Shown here in pieces: positions 34,850-44,266 of a stretch of 64,000 nt of DNA. This stretch comes from Methanoregula sp. (GTDB lineage Archaea; Halobacteriota; Methanomicrobia; Methanomicrobiales; Methanospirillaceae): contig NZ_JAQTQD010000002.1 in assembly GCF_028712425.1 (NCBI RefSeq), positions 124,001 through 188,000 of the forward strand, read 5' to 3'. The notes under the pieces are model-generated. The model worked only from the letters and a program-made list of their open reading frames with translations. It searched no databases and had not been told where the DNA came from. The number at the start of each line of letters is the position of its first letter. Positions within the stretch are counted from its first letter, which is position 1. Both the position numbers and the translations under genes were made by a program.

Positions 34850-35347
34850 ATGGGAACGTTAGGACAGAAGATTGTCGGAAGCAACGTAAAAGAGATCGTA
34901 AACCTGCTCAACAAGGCCTATTGCGATGAATGGCTCGCCTACTACCAGTACTGGATAGGGTCCAAGGTTGTAAAAGGCCCCAACAAGGAAGCGGTCATCA
35001 GCGAACTCACCCTCCATGCAACCGAGGAACTGAACCACGCGACCCTGCTTACAACCCGCATCATCCAGCTCGGTGGGACTCCCATTACAAAGCCGCAGGA
35101 CTGGTACAAGTTCACCAATTGCGGGTACGATGCTCCGGATGACCCGTTCATCGTGAAGATATTAGAACAGAACATCAAGGGTGAGCAGTGCGCCATCAAG
35201 ACGTACAATTCCCTGATGAAGAAGACAAAGGACAAGGACCCCGTCACCTACAATATCCTCCTCACGATCCTCTCGCAGGAGGTCGAACACGAGGAAGACC
35301 TCCAGGCCCTCCTGGAGGATGTCGAGATCATCATGAAGAAAAAGTGA
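34850..35347 (+). CDS. Ferritin-like / Dps-like iron protein
   Basis: A 165-residue four-helix bundle. Iron ligand motifs: CDEWLAYYQYW (E27), ATEELNHA (E60, H63), KGEQCAIKTY (E112) and SQEVEHEEDL (E144, H147). It resembles Dps-like and bacterioferritin-type archaeal proteins that oxidise and store iron and detoxify peroxide. C91 and C114 lie close to the site, as do paired cysteines in Dps-like (DPSL) proteins; whether they are functional thiols is untested. It leads a redox gene group and has its own terminator. Confidence 0.84.
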   Translation: MGTLGQKIVGSNVKEIVNLLNKAYCDEWLAYYQYWIGSKVVKGPNKEAVISELTLHATEELNHATLLTTRIIQLGGTPITKPQDWYKFTNCGYDAPDDPFIVKILEQNIKGEQCAIKTYNSLMKKTKDKDPVTYNILLTILSQEVEHEEDLQALLEDVEIIMKKK

Positions 35348-35371
35348 AGACACTTCCTTCACCCTTTTTTT
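35344..35371 (+). terminator. Stem-loop and oligo-T terminator after ferritin-like gene
   Basis: GTGAAG (35344-35349) pairs with CTTCAC (35357-35362), followed by CC and seven T (35365-35371). Overlaps the stop codon TGA by two bases at 35345-35347. Confidence 0.6.
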
Positions 35372-35451
35372 AGGTGACCGGCGCACTATCCCCGGGTATA
35401 AATACTATCTGCCGCAACTTCCCATCATACAACGGAGGGAGACCAGGTTTC

Positions 35452-35727
35452 ATGGAACACGTTGACGGAAAGGACAAGGGAAACATTGTGCTGTACGCAC
35501 TTTCCACGTGCGGGTGGTGTGCAAAGACAAAAGATCTCCTCCGTGAGATGGGCATTGCGTTTGATTACACCTTTGTCGATCTTCTCGATGGCAGTGAGCA
35601 GGATGACGCGATAAGCACGGTGGAGAAGTTCAACCCGAGCGGGTCGTTTCCCACGCTCGTCATTAACAATAAAAAAACCATTGTCGGATTCCGTGAGCAG
35701 GAGATACGGGAGGCTCTTGGCCCATGA
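35452..35727 (+). CDS. Glutaredoxin-like thiol oxidoreductase
   Basis: A 91-residue thioredoxin-fold protein. The active site is STCGWCAKTKDLL (C20 and C23), with the cis-proline segment SGSFPTLVINN. It is of the short NrdH/glutaredoxin-like type used by methanogens, which lack glutathione. The ATG at 35452 follows GGAGGG by about a dozen bases; a frame extension to 35374 has no family support. Its stop overlaps the next gene (ATGA), so it is probably the substrate or partner of that reductase. Confidence 0.88.
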   Translation: MEHVDGKDKGNIVLYALSTCGWCAKTKDLLREMGIAFDYTFVDLLDGSEQDDAISTVEKFNPSGSFPTLVINNKKTIVGFREQEIREALGP

Positions 35728-36254
35728 CCTTTACCGGCATCAGCGAACAGGAGGTTGACCGGGCATACGATTCTCTCAAAAATGATGCCCTGGACGGGGG
35801 ATACCGCCTTAACCCGGATGCGGAGTTTGTAAAAAACCTTATCCGGGGTCTCCTGAAGAACGAACAGCGGTACGGGTATCGGGCCTGCCCCTGCCGGCTG
35901 GCTTCCGGGAAGATGGAGGTGGATCTTGACATCGTCTGCCCCTGCGATTACCGGGATTCGGATATCGAGGAGTACGGTGCCTGCTACTGTGCCTTGTACG
36001 TCAGCGAGGCGATCACAGATGGCACACGGAAGGTCGCCCCCGTTCCCGAACGCCGCCCGCCCCGTTCGCAGCGGGGAACGATGAAGGAGCGTGCTGTCCA
36101 GACAGTCGCAGTTGGAGGAGGGACAACTTTCGGGAGTCTCCCATTCCCGGTCTGGCGCTGCAAGGTGTGCGGCTACCTCTGTGCACGCGATCAGCCCCCG
36201 GGCATCTGCCCGGTCTGCAAGGCAAAGAAGGACCGGTTCGAGCGATTCCTGTAA
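35724..36254 (+). CDS. Ferredoxin:thioredoxin reductase catalytic subunit fused to rubredoxin
   Basis: A 176-residue protein in two parts. Residues 1-100 are the FTR catalytic subunit with the [4Fe-4S] and redox-active cysteines: C55-P-C57, C72-P-C74 and C87-Y-C89. Residues 143-176 are a rubredoxin domain (WRCKVCGYLC and GICPVCKA; ligands C146, C149, C162, C165). A 40-residue linker joins them. The arrangement is that of ferredoxin:disulfide reductase studied in Methanosarcina. It would reduce disulfides with electrons from ferredoxin. It is translationally coupled to the upstream glutaredoxin-like gene. Confidence 0.9.
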   Translation: MTFTGISEQEVDRAYDSLKNDALDGGYRLNPDAEFVKNLIRGLLKNEQRYGYRACPCRLASGKMEVDLDIVCPCDYRDSDIEEYGACYCALYVSEAITDGTRKVAPVPERRPPRSQRGTMKERAVQTVAVGGGTTFGSLPFPVWRCKVCGYLCARDQPPGICPVCKAKKDRFERFL

Positions 36255-36372
36255 TTTTTTGTCTCCGGGCTTCTCCGTTACAAAAGAGTGAAGATGGGGG
36301 TGCATCTCTTCCGCAGGTTCCCGGGGTATGATATCCTTTTGAACATTCTCTTATACTTTTCCCGCAAAGATC

Positions 36373-36720
36373 ATGGGCATGGCAGGAACCGTAACAGTCG
36401 AAGTTGTCGGCCTGAAGAACTCGGAATGCTCCCCCTTTCCCTGTGACGATGACCGTACCTGCGGCCTTGAAGAATGCTTCAAATCCGGAAAGCTGGTTGC
36501 GGCTTTCCAGGCGCTCACAAACGCTCTGAAAGCAGCGTACGGGGACCGCGTGGCGACGAAACTGACCCTCCTTGATGAGGGAACCCCGGCATATATCAAA
36601 GAAATTATCGAGCGCGATCACCCCCCCATCCCCATGATCCTAGTCAACGGCAAAGTAACGAAGATCGGCCGGATCGTCCTTGACCGGACAAAGGCAGAGA
36701 TTGAAAAAGCACTGGTATGA
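36373..36720 (+). CDS. Thioredoxin-fold protein of unknown function
   Basis: A 115-residue protein. The N-terminal half starts as a strand (TVTVEVVGLKNSECSPFPCDDDRTCGLEECF), rich in cysteines (four between about 19 and 35); a C-terminal part (PPIPMILVNGKVTKIGRIVLDRTKAEIEKALV) has the cis-proline-like and final helix of thioredoxin-fold proteins. There is no standard CxxC, so it may bind metal rather than exchange disulfides. It lies 118 bases downstream of the FTR-rubredoxin gene, same strand. Confidence 0.7.
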   Translation: MGMAGTVTVEVVGLKNSECSPFPCDDDRTCGLEECFKSGKLVAAFQALTNALKAAYGDRVATKLTLLDEGTPAYIKEIIERDHPPIPMILVNGKVTKIGRIVLDRTKAEIEKALV

Positions 36721-37112: not shown

Positions 37113-39050
37113 ATGATCGCAGGGCTCTTCATCATTTCCCTCGGTATCTTTGTTCTCGGGGTCCTCCTGCCCCTTGCCGGCACATGGCAGGACCGCCGTA
37201 TCTTTCGGGCCGGATCGCATCTCTGCACCATCGCCGGATCCATTCTCCTCGGGGCTCTCTCGCTCTTCCTCTTCCTTACCGGCAACGACATTGCCTGGAC
37301 TGCGTACCAGCCGGTTGCCGGCTTCTCCCTCTCGTTTGTTATCGACCGGCTCTCTGCCTTCTTCCTGCTCCTGATTTCCGTGGTGTCGATATGCGTTGCC
37401 CTCTATGCGGCAGAATATAACGAGCACCTTGAAGGGGGCTTGCGCAGGAATCTCCTCTCTGGCTGTACGAACCTGTTTATCCTCTCCATGGTGCTCGTGG
37501 TGGCTTCCGCCAACACCTTCTCCTTCCTGGTCTTCTGGGAACTCATGGCAGGGTGCTCGTTCCTTCTCGTGATGTACGATTACTCCCGTGCAACGACCCG
37601 GAAGGCCGGGCTCTTTTATTTCGTGATGACCCATCTCTCGACGCTCTTTGTCCTCTTGGGCATCGTCCTCCTGTTTTCTTCGACGGGCTCCTTTGTCCTG
37701 GCACCAGCCGGTGTCTCTCCCGTTTCGGCCATTGCTTTTGTTGCCCTTCTTATCGGTTTCTCCATAAAGGCAGGTATCATCCCGTTCCACAAGTGGCTTC
37801 CCTATGCCCATCCCGCGAGCCCGACGCCGATATCGGCCCTCATGTCCAGCGTGATGCTCAAGATCGCGGTATACGGTCTTCTCCGTTTCCTGCTGGATGT
37901 GTTCTCACCCGATGTCTGGTGGGGCATCCTTATCCTCATCATGGGCACGACAACCGCTGTCCTTGGGATCATCTACGCTTTAAAGGAGTATGACATCAAG
38001 GCCATGCTCGCGTACAGCAGCATCGAGAACACCGGCATCATCTTCATGGGTATCGGCCTGTATGTAATCTTCTCCAGTTACCAGCTTTTTGATCTTGCCC
38101 TGATCAGCCTGCTCTCCGCCCTCTTCCATACCCTCAATCATGCCATCTTCAAGAGTCTCCTCTTCCTGACGGCCGGCTCTGTTGTCCACGCCACGCACAC
38201 CCGGGACATTGAGCAGATGGGGGGGCTAATCCACAGGATGCCTTACACTGCGGGGCTCTTCTTTGTCGGCGCGCTTGCCATTGCCGCCCTCCCCCCGCTA
38301 AACGGGTTTGCGAGCGAAGTGTTGCTGTTCATCTCGTTCTTCTCCTCCATAGCGGTAGCAGACCCGCTCTTCAAGGTGCTGCTCTTCCTCTGCCTCGGCC
38401 TCTTTGCACTGACGAGCGCGCTCTCGGCTGCCTGTTTTGTCAAGGCGTTCGGGTCGGTCTTTTTAGCGCTCCCCCGCTCTCCTGAGAGTGGCAGGGCAGA
38501 AGAGGTTCCTTTTCTGATGCTGCTTGGCCCGGCGCTGCTTGCATCGGCCTGTATCGTCCTTGGCCTCTTTGCCGCCCAGATCTTTTTTATTGCCGGTTTT
38601 ACCGTGCCGATGCCCGATATGTTCCTTGTCGGCCTGCTTTTGCTTGCCATGCTCGTCCTCACGTTTGCGGTCCTTTTTTTTACGGCATCCCGTGACGTAC
38701 GGGTCACCGATACCTGGGGGTGCGGGACACTCTCGCAACAGCCGGCCATGGAATACTCCGGCCACGGATTCTCGGAACCCATTGACATCATCTTCTCCAC
38801 CGTGTACCGGACAAAGATGAAGAACGAACGCACGTTCTTTGACCAGAAGAACTGCATCTTTGCCGAAGGCAAGGCTGAAATCCGGCTCATCAAAGTATTC
38901 GAGGAATACCTGTACCTGCCTGTTGCGCGGGCCTCGTATGCGACCGCGGAGACGGTCTCCCGGTTCCAGAGCGGGTGCCTTGACACGTATCTCCTCTATG
39001 TCTTCTGCGCCGTGATTGCGGTTATCGTCTTCCTGGGGTGGCTGGCATGA
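37113..39050 (+). CDS. HyfB-like antiporter-type membrane subunit
   Basis: A 645-residue protein with about 16 membrane helices, of the NuoL/MrpA/HyfB superfamily that carries protons or sodium. Key charged residues are kept: glutamate in SFLVFWELMAG, lysine and histidines in GFSIKAGIIPFHKWLPYAHPASPTPISALMSS, and lysine in YDIKAMLAYSSIENTG. The C-terminal soluble tail (GHGFSEPIDIIFSTVYR) is as in HyfB. First gene of a six-gene operon; its stop overlaps the next start by 13 bases. Confidence 0.9.
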   Translation: MIAGLFIISLGIFVLGVLLPLAGTWQDRRIFRAGSHLCTIAGSILLGALSLFLFLTGNDIAWTAYQPVAGFSLSFVIDRLSAFFLLLISVVSICVALYAAEYNEHLEGGLRRNLLSGCTNLFILSMVLVVASANTFSFLVFWELMAGCSFLLVMYDYSRATTRKAGLFYFVMTHLSTLFVLLGIVLLFSSTGSFVLAPAGVSPVSAIAFVALLIGFSIKAGIIPFHKWLPYAHPASPTPISALMSSVMLKIAVYGLLRFLLDVFSPDVWWGILILIMGTTTAVLGIIYALKEYDIKAMLAYSSIENTGIIFMGIGLYVIFSSYQLFDLALISLLSALFHTLNHAIFKSLLFLTAGSVVHATHTRDIEQMGGLIHRMPYTAGLFFVGALAIAALPPLNGFASEVLLFISFFSSIAVADPLFKVLLFLCLGLFALTSALSAACFVKAFGSVFLALPRSPESGRAEEVPFLMLLGPALLASACIVLGLFAAQIFFIAGFTVPMPDMFLVGLLLLAMLVLTFAVLFFTASRDVRVTDTWGCGTLSQQPAMEYSGHGFSEPIDIIFSTVYRTKMKNERTFFDQKNCIFAEGKAEIRLIKVFEEYLYLPVARASYATAETVSRFQSGCLDTYLLYVFCAVIAVIVFLGWLA

Positions 39051-39988
39051 ACCTTTCTTTTGGCCTGTACTTAATCCTCAACACCGTCGCTGTGCTGCTC
39101 GTAGCACCACTGTTTGTGAGCATCATCAAGAAAGTGAAAGCCCGGGCACAGGGGAGGAGCGGACAGTCTGTCTTCCAGATCTACTTCACCCTCGCAAAAC
39201 TGCTGAAGAAGGAGACGGTCTACTCGTCGCACTCCTCGTGGGTCATGCGACTGACGCCCTACGTCAGCATTGCCGCCATGCTGGTCGCAGCCCTCTTCGT
39301 CCCCCTCGTCTTCGTTCCTGAGCCGGTCGGGGGGATTGGCAATATCATTCTTTTACTCTATCTCCTCGCGCTTGCCCGGTTCTTCATGGCGCTCGCCGGG
39401 CTTGACGCCGGCAGTCCGTTTGGCGGGATGGGCAGCTCACGGGAGATGAGCATCTCGGCCATTATCGAGCCAACGACCATCATCGTCTTTGCTGCGCTGG
39501 TCTTTGTCTTCAAATCCTTAAATGTCTTCGACATGTTTGCCGCATCCGCTGCTGCCGGTGCACCCTCCACTCCCACCTTAATCCTGCTTGCCATCTCGCT
39601 CTTCATCATCCTCGTGGTCGAGACTTCCCGGATCCCGGTCGACAATCCGGAGACGCACCTGGAACTGACCATGATCCACGAGGGGATGATCCTCGAGCAA
39701 TCCGGTAAAAACCTGGCACTCATGGAACTCTCGGCTGCCGTAAAGCTCACGCTCCTGATGGCGCTCCTGCTCAACCTCATCGTCCCCTTCGGCCTCACCA
39801 CGACGCTTGCAATCGGTACGATCGCGGTGGCGGCAGTCCTCTTTGTTCTCAAGGTCACGGTCCTTGCCGGGATCATCGGCCTCTTTGAGTCTTCGATGGC
39901 GAAGATGCGGTTCTTCCGCCTCCCGAGCCTTTTTGCCATGGCGTTCTTCTTCTCCACGCTTATCATCATCATCGAGGTGTTCGCATGA
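39038..39988 (+). CDS. HyfC-like membrane subunit (NuoH homologue)
   Basis: A 316-residue protein with about eight membrane helices, homologous to the subunit that anchors the catalytic part to the membrane (NuoH, HycD, EchB). Conserved loops are present: ARAQGRSGQSVFQIYFTLAKLLKKE, GLDAGSPFGGMGSSREMSISAIIEP and VETSRIPVDNPETHLELTMIHEGMILE. In working hydrogenases these acidic loops connect redox chemistry to ion channels. Overlaps hyfB-like and hyfE-like neighbours by a few bases. Confidence 0.92.
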   Translation: MAGMNLSFGLYLILNTVAVLLVAPLFVSIIKKVKARAQGRSGQSVFQIYFTLAKLLKKETVYSSHSSWVMRLTPYVSIAAMLVAALFVPLVFVPEPVGGIGNIILLLYLLALARFFMALAGLDAGSPFGGMGSSREMSISAIIEPTTIIVFAALVFVFKSLNVFDMFAASAAAGAPSTPTLILLAISLFIILVVETSRIPVDNPETHLELTMIHEGMILEQSGKNLALMELSAAVKLTLLMALLLNLIVPFGLTTTLAIGTIAVAAVLFVLKVTVLAGIIGLFESSMAKMRFFRLPSLFAMAFFFSTLIIIIEVFA

Positions 39989-40677
39989 TCGATCCCGCGC
40001 TCATCCAGTCAGTAATCCGGATCCTCTTTGCGGTTGTCATCGTCACGGCAGCCTACATCATCTCTACAAGGAACCTCATCTCGCTGGTATCGGTTTACGC
40101 CGTTCAGTCGCTCACCCTTGTTTTCATGGCGCTTGCTCTCTGGTCGCTTGAGGGTGTGACTGTCCTCCTTGGAATTGCCGTGGTAACATTTGTAAGCAAG
40201 GTGCTCGTCATCCCCTATTTCATCGCCAGCATCCAGGAGCGGATCCGGATCCGGCGCGACATCGAGTTCCATTTCCTGAGCCCTACAACCTCCCTTCTCC
40301 TCTCCATGGCGCTGATCCTCTTCATCTACATAGCGCTGGCAAATATCCTTGAAGGGACTCCGGCGAGGGAGAGCCTCTTCTTCTTTGGCGCCGTTATCGG
40401 CCTCTCCTTAATGCTCATGGGAATGATGGTCACGTTCTCGCGGAAACGGGCCATTACAAAGGTCCTTGGCTACCTCTCGATGGAGAACGGCGTGCTGCTC
40501 TTTGGGATGTTTGTCACCGAGCTCCCGTTCATCATCGAGTTTCTGATCATCATCGACCTTGTCATCCTTGTGATACTGACCACGATCTTAACCGTTGGCC
40601 TCGATTCCACGCTCGAAGAGTACCACCAGCGCCTCCACCGCTTCCATCTTGTGGGTGACACGGAGGACGGGCCATGA
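39985..40677 (+). CDS. HyfE-like membrane subunit (NuoK homologue)
   Basis: A 230-residue membrane protein with about six or seven helices. The MENGVLLFGMFVTELPFIIEFLIIIDLVI segment is the NuoK/MrpC-like motif with buried glutamate typical of HyfE. It overlaps both neighbours by four bases (ATGA), so all are translated as one unit. Confidence 0.88.
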   Translation: MIDPALIQSVIRILFAVVIVTAAYIISTRNLISLVSVYAVQSLTLVFMALALWSLEGVTVLLGIAVVTFVSKVLVIPYFIASIQERIRIRRDIEFHFLSPTTSLLLSMALILFIYIALANILEGTPARESLFFFGAVIGLSLMLMGMMVTFSRKRAITKVLGYLSMENGVLLFGMFVTELPFIIEFLIIIDLVILVILTTILTVGLDSTLEEYHQRLHRFHLVGDTEDGP

Positions 40678-42155
40678 TCCTCGCAGCCTTTGTCCTCGTC
40701 GCGGCAGCGGCGCTTGCCGTTATAACGCTGGGACGGACCCATCGTCAGATGAACTCGGCATGTATTGCAGAGGCCGCCATCTTCCTTGCACTCTCGGGCT
40801 GGCTCATCCTTTCCGCGCAGATCCCCGTGACCACACTGGCGATCGGGAACGAGTTTTTCTTCATTGACCATCTGGGCATCTACGAAGTGCTCATAGCCAC
40901 CATCATCTTCCTTCTCGCCGCGGTCTATGCGAGAGGGTATGTCGAGAACCTGATCGAGGCACGGGAACTTTCCCGGGGGAGCCTGAAGTTCTTCTATGGT
41001 GCCTGGGCCTTCCTCCTGCTGGTCATCGTCCTTGCATTCTTCTCGGACAACCTTGCCCTTTTCTGGATCTTCACCGAGCTGACAACGGTCATCTCTGCCA
41101 TGCTGGTCGCGATCCTGTACGCACGGGACAACATAGATGCAGCAATCAAGTACATCTTCATCGCGTCGGTCTCCATGCTCTTCTCGTTTGTCGGGCTCAT
41201 CTTCCTCTTCGAGGTCTCGCGGAGTGTCGTGGGTACCGGCACCCTCAACTGGACCGTCCTGATGCAGCAGGCCGGATCCTTCCCCCCTGAAATGATGATC
41301 GCGGCATTCGCCCTCATCTTCATCGGCTTTGCCGCAAAGTCGGGGATCTTCCCCTTCCACACCTGGCTCCCCGAAGCCCATGTACGGGCGCCGTCTGCCG
41401 TAAGCGCGATCCTCTCCGGTGTCCTCCTGAATGTGGGGATCTATGGCATCATCCGCGTCTTTGCCATCGTCCACCGGACAACCGCAGTCTCCACGGTTTC
41501 GCTCCTGCTCCTGGTTTTCGGCCTCCTGACGGTCTTCATCGCAGCCCTGTCCATGCTCCCCCAGAAGAAACTCAAGAAACTGATTGCGTTCTCCAGCATC
41601 GAGAACATGGGGATCCTGCTCATCGGGCTTGCGGTGGCAACTCCCCTTGCACTCTTCTGGGTGCTGTTCCATGTGATGGCCCACGCGTTCACGAAGGCCG
41701 GCCTCTTCTTCTCTGCCGGGATCCTCCACCGCCAGTACCACAGCACCCTCTCGCCGGATGCAGTGGACGATATGCGGGATGTCTTTGCCCTCCAGCCGGT
41801 TGCTGCATGGGGTATCATCCTTGGTGGCCTTGCCATCACCGGGATGCCGCTCTTTCCGGTCTTCCTCTCGAAGTTCTTCCTGCTCGTGCAGCTTGCGGGT
41901 TTCTTCCCTGTTGCCCTTGTCATCCTTCTCATCCTGCTCTTCATTGCGGCCGGGGCTTTCGGGTACTTCGTGATCCGCACGTTCACGCAGGTCTCCCCTG
42001 CCGGCACACTCCCCGAAATGATACGTTACCAGACCCCCGCTGGCATGAACATACCCGTCATCGTCCTCCTTGTCATAATCCTTATTCTCGGGACTGTTAT
42101 CACGACAGGAGAAGTGGCGTTCCTTGACCAGGTAATCGCGGAGCTGATGTTCTGA
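40674..42155 (+). CDS. HyfF-like antiporter-type membrane subunit
   Basis: A 493-residue protein with about 14 helices, second antiporter-like subunit in the operon (NuoM/NuoN/HyfF type). Key residues retained are glutamate in LALFWIFTELTTVISAM, lysine and histidine in GFAAKSGIFPFHTWLPEAHVRAPSAVSAILSG, and the KKLIAFSSIENMGIL segment. Start overlaps the hyfE-like stop by four bases and its own stop touches the next start. Confidence 0.9.
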   Translation: MILAAFVLVAAAALAVITLGRTHRQMNSACIAEAAIFLALSGWLILSAQIPVTTLAIGNEFFFIDHLGIYEVLIATIIFLLAAVYARGYVENLIEARELSRGSLKFFYGAWAFLLLVIVLAFFSDNLALFWIFTELTTVISAMLVAILYARDNIDAAIKYIFIASVSMLFSFVGLIFLFEVSRSVVGTGTLNWTVLMQQAGSFPPEMMIAAFALIFIGFAAKSGIFPFHTWLPEAHVRAPSAVSAILSGVLLNVGIYGIIRVFAIVHRTTAVSTVSLLLLVFGLLTVFIAALSMLPQKKLKKLIAFSSIENMGILLIGLAVATPLALFWVLFHVMAHAFTKAGLFFSAGILHRQYHSTLSPDAVDDMRDVFALQPVAAWGIILGGLAITGMPLFPVFLSKFFLLVQLAGFFPVALVILLILLFIAAGAFGYFVIRTFTQVSPAGTLPEMIRYQTPAGMNIPVIVLLVIILILGTVITTGEVAFLDQVIAELMF

Positions 42156-43735
42156 TGAATGCAGATGAGAGTACAGGAAAACACCTTGTACATGAACTGC
42201 TGGGACCTGGTCCGCTTGCAGAACAGGTCACCGAAGGATGTAATGGCGAATGGTATGTCCGGGTGAGCGGGACGGAGTTCCTGCCGCTTGTTACTGCCTT
42301 TGCATCTCGCGAGTGTGCATTGATTGGCCTCTTCTGCACAGAACGCTTCTCTCCCGGCGCACCGTTCTCGCTCCTGTATGTTTTTGAGAAGAAAGGCGTC
42401 CTCCTTGTCATTGTGCTGGACACTGCGCAGTCCGCCCCATCCATTGCCCGGCTCCTCCCCTCGGCCTGTTGGCCCGAACGGGAATGCCGCGATGGCTTTG
42501 GCATTGCATTTGAGGGATTGTTCGATGAACGAAGGCTCCTGCTCCATGAGACCTATCCCGATGATTACTACTCCTTAAAAAAGAGTGTCGCGAACGTTCC
42601 TCCCCTGATGAAACCTTCCGTGGACCCGTCAGAAGAGTATCCCTTCCGGAGCGTGCAGGGTGACGGCGTGTACCAGATCCCGGTTGGCCCGGTCCATGCC
42701 GGAATCATTGAGCCGGGACATTTCCGTTTCAGTGTTATCGGTGAGAAAATCTTCAATCTTGAGGTCCGGATGTTCTACAAGCACCGCGGGATCGAGAAGC
42801 TGGCGGAGAGAAGACTGCCAGAGGACGTTGTCCGCATTGCTGAATCCGTCAGCGGGGACGAATCCGTGGTAAACACCGTTGCCTTCTGTATTGCCGCGGA
42901 GAAGATTGCTGGAACACACGTGCCGGAACGGGCATGGGCCCTGCGGACCATTTTTATGGAGCTGGAGCGGATCGGTTCGCATCTCGGGGACCAGGCCGGC
43001 ATGCTCGTGGACGTGGCCTTCCCGCTGGGTGCAAGCCAGTTTGCGGTGATCCGTGAAGAGGTGTTCCGGATAAACGCCCTCCTTACGGGCTCGCGGTTCC
43101 TGCGGGGGATGGTTGTGCCCGGAGGGATCTCCCGCGACATCCGCACCGAAGACCTGGAGGCGCTCGCGCAGTTTGTCCGGCAGGTCCGGAAGCGGTACCG
43201 CACGGGCCTGAAGATCGTGCTCTCGACAGCATCCGTCATCGACCGGTTCTCGCCAACAGGTGTGGTCCGGAGATCGATCCTCCGGCCGCTCAACATCACC
43301 GGGCCGACGTCCCGGGCTTCCGGCGGGAATGGAGATGTAAGAGTCGACCATCCCTATGGCATCTACTCCCGTCATCCCCCGTCCGTCAGGACGCTGCATG
43401 ACGGCGATGTGCTCTCCCGGTTTACCGTCCGGGCATCCGAGATCCTGGATTCGCTCGACCTTATCGAGCGGCTGCTCACCACCCTTCCGGAAGGGACGGT
43501 AAAGGAGGCATATGATGCAAAGGACGGCTATACCCTCTCTCTCGTGGAATCTGCACGGGGGCAGAACCTCTGCTGGGTCTGGATCCGGGACGGTGTAGTT
43601 GAACGCTACAAGGTACGAACCGCCTCGTACTGCAACTGGCTGGCCATCGAGCATGCAGTCCAGGGGGAGATTGTTCCGGACTTCCCGCTCATCAACAAGA
43701 GCCTGAACCTGTCCTACGCGGGGACAGACCTGTGA
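42155..43735 (+). CDS. HyfG-like large subunit without NiFe-binding cysteines
   Basis: A 526-residue fusion of a NuoC-like part (about 1-165) and a NuoD/hydrogenase-large-subunit-like part. HyfG features are clear: GPVHAGIIEPGHFRFSVIGEKIFNLEVRMFYKHRGIEKLAERR at about 178-220 and MELERIGSHLGD. But the CxxC that binds NiFe at the N-terminal site is replaced by SGDESV (233-238), and the C-terminal CxxC is absent: the protein ends PLINKSLNLSYAGTDL. So it cannot hold a NiFe centre. Such proteins are known as energy-converting-hydrogenase-related (Ehr) subunits. Partners are the four membrane proteins upstream and the small subunit downstream. Confidence 0.9.
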   Translation: MNADESTGKHLVHELLGPGPLAEQVTEGCNGEWYVRVSGTEFLPLVTAFASRECALIGLFCTERFSPGAPFSLLYVFEKKGVLLVIVLDTAQSAPSIARLLPSACWPERECRDGFGIAFEGLFDERRLLLHETYPDDYYSLKKSVANVPPLMKPSVDPSEEYPFRSVQGDGVYQIPVGPVHAGIIEPGHFRFSVIGEKIFNLEVRMFYKHRGIEKLAERRLPEDVVRIAESVSGDESVVNTVAFCIAAEKIAGTHVPERAWALRTIFMELERIGSHLGDQAGMLVDVAFPLGASQFAVIREEVFRINALLTGSRFLRGMVVPGGISRDIRTEDLEALAQFVRQVRKRYRTGLKIVLSTASVIDRFSPTGVVRRSILRPLNITGPTSRASGGNGDVRVDHPYGIYSRHPPSVRTLHDGDVLSRFTVRASEILDSLDLIERLLTTLPEGTVKEAYDAKDGYTLSLVESARGQNLCWVWIRDGVVERYKVRTASYCNWLAIEHAVQGEIVPDFPLINKSLNLSYAGTDL

Positions 43736-43747
43736 GGTGACGTAATA

Positions 43748-44266
43748 ATGGTGAACGTGCTTTCCTGCCTGCTGAAGAGAAAAGTGACCGCCGATGTCAC
43801 GGTGCGGGATGAAGAGATCGAGGCACTGGGCCGGGAGATCCGGCGTGAAGTCGACGCAGTGTTTGGTGGGAGTCTCGCGATCCGCGAACTTGATACGGGG
43901 AGCGACAATTCTGCCGAGATCGAGATCAACAATCTCACGAATCCGTATTACGATATAGAGCGGTTCGGCATCACGTTCGCGGCCTCGCCACGCCACGCCG
44001 ACGTGCTCCTGGTGACCGGGGCAGTGACCCACAACATGGTGGCAGCGGCAAAAAAAACGTACGATGCCATGCCGACGCCGAAGTTCGTGGTGGCCGTTGG
44101 CGACGATGCCTGCAACGGCGGGATCTTTGCCGGCTCCTACGCCGTGCTCGGCGGGGCAGAGAAGATCTTCCCGGTCGACTTGAAGATCATGGGTAATCCG
44201 CCAGCCCCAAAGGAGATCCTGGCCGGACTTCTTGCACTGATGAGACAAGCCGGCAGGGGACGTTGA
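43748..44266 (+). CDS. HyfI-like small subunit lacking all four [4Fe-4S] cysteines
   Basis: A 172-residue NuoB/HyfI homologue. The fold signatures are intact (ASPRHADVLLVTGAVTHNM; PTPKFVVAVGDDACNGGIFAGSYAV; FPVDLKIMGNPPAPKEIL). Each cysteine that holds the proximal or N2 [4Fe-4S] cluster is changed: GSCNxC is GSDNSA (D53, A56), GDCA is GDDA (D120) and GCPP is GNPP (N150). C122, two residues from the usual place, is unlikely to rescue a four-cysteine site. The frame is open and the neighbours intact, so this is not decay. It starts 12 bases after the large subunit stop. Confidence 0.9.
   Translation: MVNVLSCLLKRKVTADVTVRDEEIEALGREIRREVDAVFGGSLAIRELDTGSDNSAEIEINNLTNPYYDIERFGITFAASPRHADVLLVTGAVTHNMVAAAKKTYDAMPTPKFVVAVGDDACNGGIFAGSYAVLGGAEKIFPVDLKIMGNPPAPKEILAGLLALMRQAGRGR

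Follow-up and report, generated by a model that had tools for sequence, protein, structure and literature searches.

In Methanospirillum hungatei, the genes Mhun_1817-1822 have been described as a “putative membrane-bound hydrogenase” (Pmh), which is also found in Methanosarcina acetivorans and Methanosarcina mazei (Anderson et al., 2009, PMC2686161). The excerpts of that report dealing with Pmh state that its large subunits have no NiFe cysteines and “may not encode hydrogenases.” The usual description of Ehr complexes is that their large subunit has no NiFe motif (PMC6349859; PMC10432482; PMC4378227), and according to Jaffe et al. (2020, PMC7304191) the Ehr of the candidate phyla radiation (CPR) lack the cysteines with which group 4 enzymes bind metal. 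Furthermore, a membrane-bound “Hyc hydrogenase” is credited to Dehalococcoides (PMC8516407; PMC2930330). The subject of the present analysis is a hyfB-C-E-F-G-I-like operon at positions 37113-44266 of a 64,000-nucleotide stretch (hereafter, the window) from a 2.67 Mb archaeal draft genome of the genus Methanoregula. All eight metal ligands are missing in this operon, four for NiFe in the large subunit G and four for the proximal [4Fe-4S] cluster in the small subunit I, and the loss is real. An earlier examination of the letters alone (the sequence-only reading) had pointed to both replacements and had stated that loss of the NiFe site is known for Ehr complexes; alignments with hydrogenase and Ehr subunits confirm the former, and the Ehr sources cited above the latter.

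G (42155..43735, plus strand like the other five genes) is a HyfG/HycE-type, fused NuoC-NuoD-like protein of 526 amino acids, with PF00329 and PF00346 domains and a match to subunit 5 of formate hydrogenlyase (FHL; 7z0s_E, E 1.4e-74). When it is aligned to this HycE chain and to cysteine-keeping loci, residues 233–238, SGDESV (42851..42868), fall at the first NiFe pair (CGxC), and the C-terminus of G (INKSLNLSYAGTDL, 43691..43732), with NLSYAGTDL, takes the place of the second pair (CxxC) of HycE-type proteins. I (43748..44266) is a HyfI/NuoB-type protein of 172 amino acids with a PF01058 domain. Its AlphaFold2 model, built with 65 sequences, has a pLDDT of 93.0 with the former ligand loops in well-predicted segments, and Foldseek matches the model to NuoB chains of complex I, HycG (7z0s_G) and MbhJ (6cfw_J, root-mean-square deviation 1.6 Å over 138 columns). 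Alignment to these chains and to cysteine-keeping loci places D53 (43904..43906), A56 (43913..43915), D120 (44105..44107) and N150 (44195..44197) at the four proximal-cluster cysteines, in this order. Two residues past the third of them lies C122 (44111..44113), a cysteine outside the known ligand set, at a position that binds no cluster in homologues. Neither the four NiFe cysteines nor the proximal-cluster ligands that characterize group 4 [NiFe] hydrogenases are thus found in G and I, and the complex is very probably free of any bound metal redox center.

The same ligand loss is seen in about 60 orthologous loci from several Methanomicrobiales genera, Methanosarcina, Altiarchaeales and Dehalococcoidia, here called the window clade. 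The operon is carried by at least seven further Methanomicrobiales genera and, in a phylum sample, by seven Methanosarcina-family genomes. Relatives with 53–56% identity in G come from Methanosarcina and from four metagenome-assembled genomes (MAGs), one of Altiarchaeales, two of Dehalococcoidia/Dehalococcoidales and one euryarchaeal. Of the 197 genomes in the class to which the Dehalococcoidia MAG belongs, 13 have clade-like scores, and the 12 of these that were extracted as loci all show the clade pattern. Small subunits of the clade carry D53, D or E120, N150 (once D) and C122 throughout, while position 56 is A, T, V or P, the last in two genomes of another family (L185 and L186). Among the four substitutes named by the sequence-only reading, conservation therefore holds at 53, 120 and 150 and fails at 56. 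In 20 Methanoregula operons, which were extracted and aligned, D53, N150 and C122 are invariant wherever the sequence is present, position 56 is A or T, and position 120 is D, once E. The ratio of nonsynonymous to synonymous substitution rates (dN/dS; Nei-Gojobori method, nine pairs, one of them unusable for B because of a fragmentary B gene) is 0.03–0.25 across all six genes, far below 1, and G and I are constrained about as strongly as the membrane subunits; the earlier claim of intact frames under selection is borne out. Invariant D53 and C122, together with the nearly invariant D/E120 and N150, fit a repurposed site and not relaxed drift.

Outside the window clade, ligand loss in I was found, among the loci checked, only in CPR copies and one micrarchaeon. 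The other Ehr and NiFe loci with a small subunit have C,C,C,C at the four ligand positions (56/56). Five CPR loci have T or D, C, D and D there, and a second CPR sample yields T,C,D,D; T,E,D,D; D,A,D,N; and two cases of C,C,C,C. The micrarchaeal Ehr small subunit (L081:10525-11082) reads P,V,G,N. In an unrooted tree of G and I with the four ligand columns masked, the window clade forms a single group (support 100), its sister is the micrarchaeon (99), the CPR group is placed elsewhere, and the clade lies among Ehr, not NiFe, large subunits. A tree in which clade, micrarchaeon and CPR are forced together has a log-likelihood 20 units above that of the quick free tree and is not rejected (approximately unbiased test, p-AU 0.79). 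Because of this, one loss may explain every cluster-less case, and two losses are possible.

The membrane subunits tell the other half of the story. In the list of open reading frames (ORFs), the six genes overlap or nearly touch: B/C by 13 nt, C/E and E/F by 4 nt each and F/G by 1 nt, with a gap of 12 nt between G and I. B (37113..39050, 645 amino acids) is a HyfB/NuoL-type antiporter subunit with a PF00361 domain that scores 908.6 bits against NF006418 (cut-off 794). C (39038..39988, 316 amino acids) is of HyfC/HycD/NuoH type (PF00146; FHL subunit 4, 7z0s_D, E 1.1e-43), E (39985..40677, 230 amino acids) is a HyfE-type membrane subunit (NF008556, E 9.4e-16), and F (40674..42155, 493 amino acids) is a HyfF/NuoN-type antiporter subunit (PF00361; NF006427, 641 bits, cut-off 511). 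The gene order given by the sequence-only reading agrees with the ORF list, Pfam and NCBIfam. In the PDB, B, C and G are best matched by E. coli FHL subunits and I by HycG, MbhJ and complex I chains. NF006418, a “hydrogenase membrane subunit” family, accepts the six clade B subunits tested (807–1153), while the B subunits sampled from Ehr, NiFe, CPR and micrarchaeal loci reach 515–602, under the cut-off. In the stretch extracted from one Altiarchaeales genome, a further B-C-E-F set (L053:14820-19525), with no G or I in that stretch, lies 4 kb downstream of the first, complete operon.

The charged residues that the clade conserves were compared with those at the same positions of Ehr and NiFe loci. 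B keeps E143, K219, H226, H339, H343, K347 and E402 in 28–29 of 28–29 clade loci, and C keeps D123, R135, E144, E195, R198, D202, H207, E209, E215 and E284 in 29/29. Likewise, K72, E167 and D191 of E and E135, K222, H229, H337 and K341 of F are present in every or nearly every member. Overall, the ion-path residues of the membrane subunits are 90–100% conserved, as the sequence-only reading had proposed for the glutamates and lysines of B and F and for C. Some lysines are specific to the clade: K227 and K291 of B, K159 of E (Q elsewhere) and K400 of F (mostly E in Ehr). With the ion-path residues of all four membrane subunits conserved, both the membrane arm and the acidic chain in C are intact.

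No corresponding path for electrons was found. By a crude scan for CxxCxxCxxxC in and near the operon, the ferredoxin motif occurs in 0/35 clade loci and 0/6 CPR and micrarchaeal loci, in or near the operon of 9/51 cluster-keeping Ehr loci and in the small-subunit ORF of 9/14 NiFe loci, a gradient consistent with stepwise loss. A nearby ferredoxin-like gene is accordingly rejected as a compensating electron entry for the 35 clade loci. The absence of a ferredoxin-like subunit claimed earlier is confirmed, although it is not special to the clade, for most cluster-keeping Ehr loci are also without the motif. With neither metal site possible and no such motif, the earlier suggestion of a complex with no redox chemistry at all is well supported by sequence; its accompanying idea, ion transport coupled to another process, is conjectural.

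The reading that we favor, with a probability of about 0.5, is an Ehr-type complex of the FHL/complex I superfamily acting as an ion translocator without redox chemistry. The complex would be assembled like FHL and Mbh, and cations would pass through B and F, H+ against Na+ or another monovalent ion. In place of the arrival of an electron, the trigger could be a proton, a metal ion or a small ligand at the former active site, where D53, D120, C122 and N150 of I and H181, D235 and E236 of G would form a putative switch. The switched conformation would be passed to the membrane arm through the acidic chain of C. The complex would then be a ligand- or proton-motive-force-gated antiporter and not an oxidoreductase, its former cluster site having been turned into a polar gate, and it might be driven by a ligand, by another ion gradient or, among methanogens, by the chemistry of CO2/bicarbonate. 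There are precedents for NuoL-like subunits at work without redox chemistry. Mrp antiporters use them in this way. In DAB2, a NuoL-type subunit serves a carbonic anhydrase driven by the proton-motive force (PMC13144422). Several points weigh against such a translocator. Conservation of the ion path is equally expected if an unrecognized electron carrier drives the complex; some Methanoregula genomes do without the operon; and its gene neighborhood is variable, with no consistent partner. A wider version, which we hold more tentatively, is that of a complex I-type machine with both arms and no electron transfer, in which the N2-type cluster site is now an acid- or cation-binding switch. It would represent one ancient redox-silent subfamily in methanogens, Altiarchaeota, Dehalococcoidia and possibly CPR, perhaps tied to CO2/bicarbonate in methanogens. 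In complex I, the arm that carries electrons drives ion pumps at a distance of tens of angstroms, and the way in which it does so is a central question of bioenergetics. A natural relative that has no electron site while keeping arm, coupling chain and pumps would make it possible to study the coupling step free of redox chemistry.

A related possibility, to which we give rather low odds, is that the complex is coupled to CO2/bicarbonate, or formate, together with an adjoining β-carbonic anhydrase (CA), so that an ion gradient would drive CO2 hydration or HCO3− movement as in DAB and cyanobacterial NDH-1MS, which use other NuoL-like subunits. A β-CA gene (Pro_CA) adjoins the operon in 19 genomes of three Methanomicrobiales lineages, in differing arrangements and with differing CA types (L035:2467-3060, L144:3133-3711, L149:11901-12584 and 16 further loci), and some of these genes are also close to fdhAB or fdhC. 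The genus g30 has the arrangement fdhA-fdhB-CA-[operon reversed]-fdhC-fdhA. In the genus g24, which we take to be Methanospirillum, CA is on one side of the operon and fdhB/fdhA are on the other in 3/5 loci, and fdhC lies about 3 kb from the operon in three Methanoregula loci. In Methanoregula, the CA type tracks the operon (25/2 versus 3/9; Fisher p 5e-5, not corrected for kinship). This adjacency suggests, rather than shows, a link to CO2. On the other hand, CA is found at the same thioredoxin-like neighbor without the operon (L160 and L161) and beside fdh without the operon (L164), so that insertion of the operon beside CA is a sufficient explanation; moreover, the enzyme is of the stand-alone soluble type. 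There is no CA in the window, and the CA of the window genome lies away from the operon, together with a GNAT acetyltransferase gene on contig C18 (L157). Nor do the copies in Methanosarcina, Altiarchaeales, Dehalococcoidia or CPR have a CA nearby, and none of the loci L059-L130 has one beside the operon. These separate locations and absences weaken CA as a fixed partner.

There are further variations around CA. Two CA genes stand in tandem beside the operon at L050:1655-3065, and the copy beside the operon in L047 is frame-broken. The GNAT gene is located directly upstream of B, on the same strand, in many copies from several Methanomicrobiales genera (L035:3467-4129, L141:2807-3427 and L142:3761-4417, and also L143 and L152). 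It was rejected as a partner on account of its position in the window genome, beside CA on another contig (L157:8578-9279).

Standing about level with the coupling to CO2 is the possibility that the complex is still an oxidoreductase, in which electrons by-pass the small-subunit cluster through an unrecognized partner or an organic cofactor at the large-subunit cavity. The G motifs (GPVHAGIIEPGHF, SGDE and NKSxxLSYxGxD) are near-identical to those of cluster-keeping Ehr, and the same cavity chemistry is therefore possible. Redox proteins are also encoded upstream: at 34850-36720 of the window, a conserved cluster comprises ferritin-like, glutaredoxin-like, ferredoxin-thioredoxin reductase (FTR) beta-like with a rubredoxin domain, and thioredoxin-like genes, the last having no Pfam match. 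Methanoregula often has these genes, a divergent β-CA and GNAT ahead of the operon and an alpha/beta hydrolase after it. However, the upstream genes also occur without the operon (L160 and L161) and are missing in other lineages, and were rejected as partners for these two reasons; the 35 clade loci hold no electron-carrying site or subunit.

Less likely still, the complex may be a dummy with a role in regulation or assembly, interacting with the true Ech, Mbh or Eha complexes of the cell. Pseudo-enzymes often regulate their own paralogues, and the window genome does encode two group 4 hydrogenases, Ech- and Mbh-like, with every ligand; their motifs are SGACNACD, GACGAGG, AGCPP, CGIC and DPCLSC in L213 and SSCNGCD, GICASSGG, PGCAA, CGIC and DPCISC in L214. 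Against this, selection maintains the whole set of six subunits together with the ion path, and a regulator would need no pair of antiporter subunits. Finally, assembly error or a decaying operon can be dismissed: although a stop-bearing piece of G between CA and hydrolase genes (L159:8459-8632) is all that remains of the operon in one lineage (genome G003), where it has been lost, the same residues recur in tens of independent genomes, clade homologues never carry the missing cysteines, the two paralogues in the same genome are intact, and dN/dS is low.

Compared with the described systems, Pmh is the closest. Methanospirillum-like g24 and Methanosarcina loci fall in the window clade with the gene order shared, and Pmh is very probably the same family as the window operon. 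Loss of the large-subunit ligands was published in 2009 for this M. hungatei/Methanosarcina version and is not new; the excerpts on Pmh keep the name hydrogenase and make no mention of the small subunit, selection or ion-path residues (PMC2686161). No report was found in the literature that the archaeal/Dehalococcoidia family has also lost the cluster of the small subunit, and a mention in Marreiros et al. (2013) is possible. By its subunit set B-C-E-F-G-I, its lost NiFe ligands, its motifs SGD(E/N/S) and LSYxG and its placement among Ehr/Hyf, the window operon belongs with the Ehr complexes. It differs from Ehr loci outside the window clade, the CPR group and L081, in which the four small-subunit cysteines are kept; this four-cysteine site is typical of the other Ehr loci analyzed here and is not part of the Ehr definition in the published excerpts. 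CPR Ehr resembles the window clade in having lost small-subunit ligands (TCDD or DCDD), whereas it often keeps the second cysteine, has Ile at the C122 position and gene I upstream, and is separate in the free tree. The Dehalococcoides “Hyc hydrogenase” is probably the cluster-less complex (copies L187, L188 and L190; L207:4658-11817) and not a hydrogenase; methanogen genes named “hydrogenase” call for the same warning, that they do not encode one. B, C and G find their best structural relatives in E. coli FHL-1/Hyf (group 4a [NiFe] hydrogenase; 7z0s), but the window operon has no counterpart of the NiFe site, the cluster chain, the formate dehydrogenase or the ferredoxin subunits of that enzyme. 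DAB (DabA/DabB) likewise has a NuoL-type subunit without electron transfer and involves a carbonic anhydrase (PMC13144422), but it consists of two subunits with the CA-fold partner bound to DabB, whereas the window complex has six, no ORF of the window operon is a DabA-type CA-fold subunit, and CA is a mere genomic neighbor of some copies. Mrp-type cation/proton antiporters share antiporter-type subunits with a Glu/Lys ion path; their set, mrpA-G, is without NuoD- and NuoB-like subunits, while the window operon has both, as G and I.

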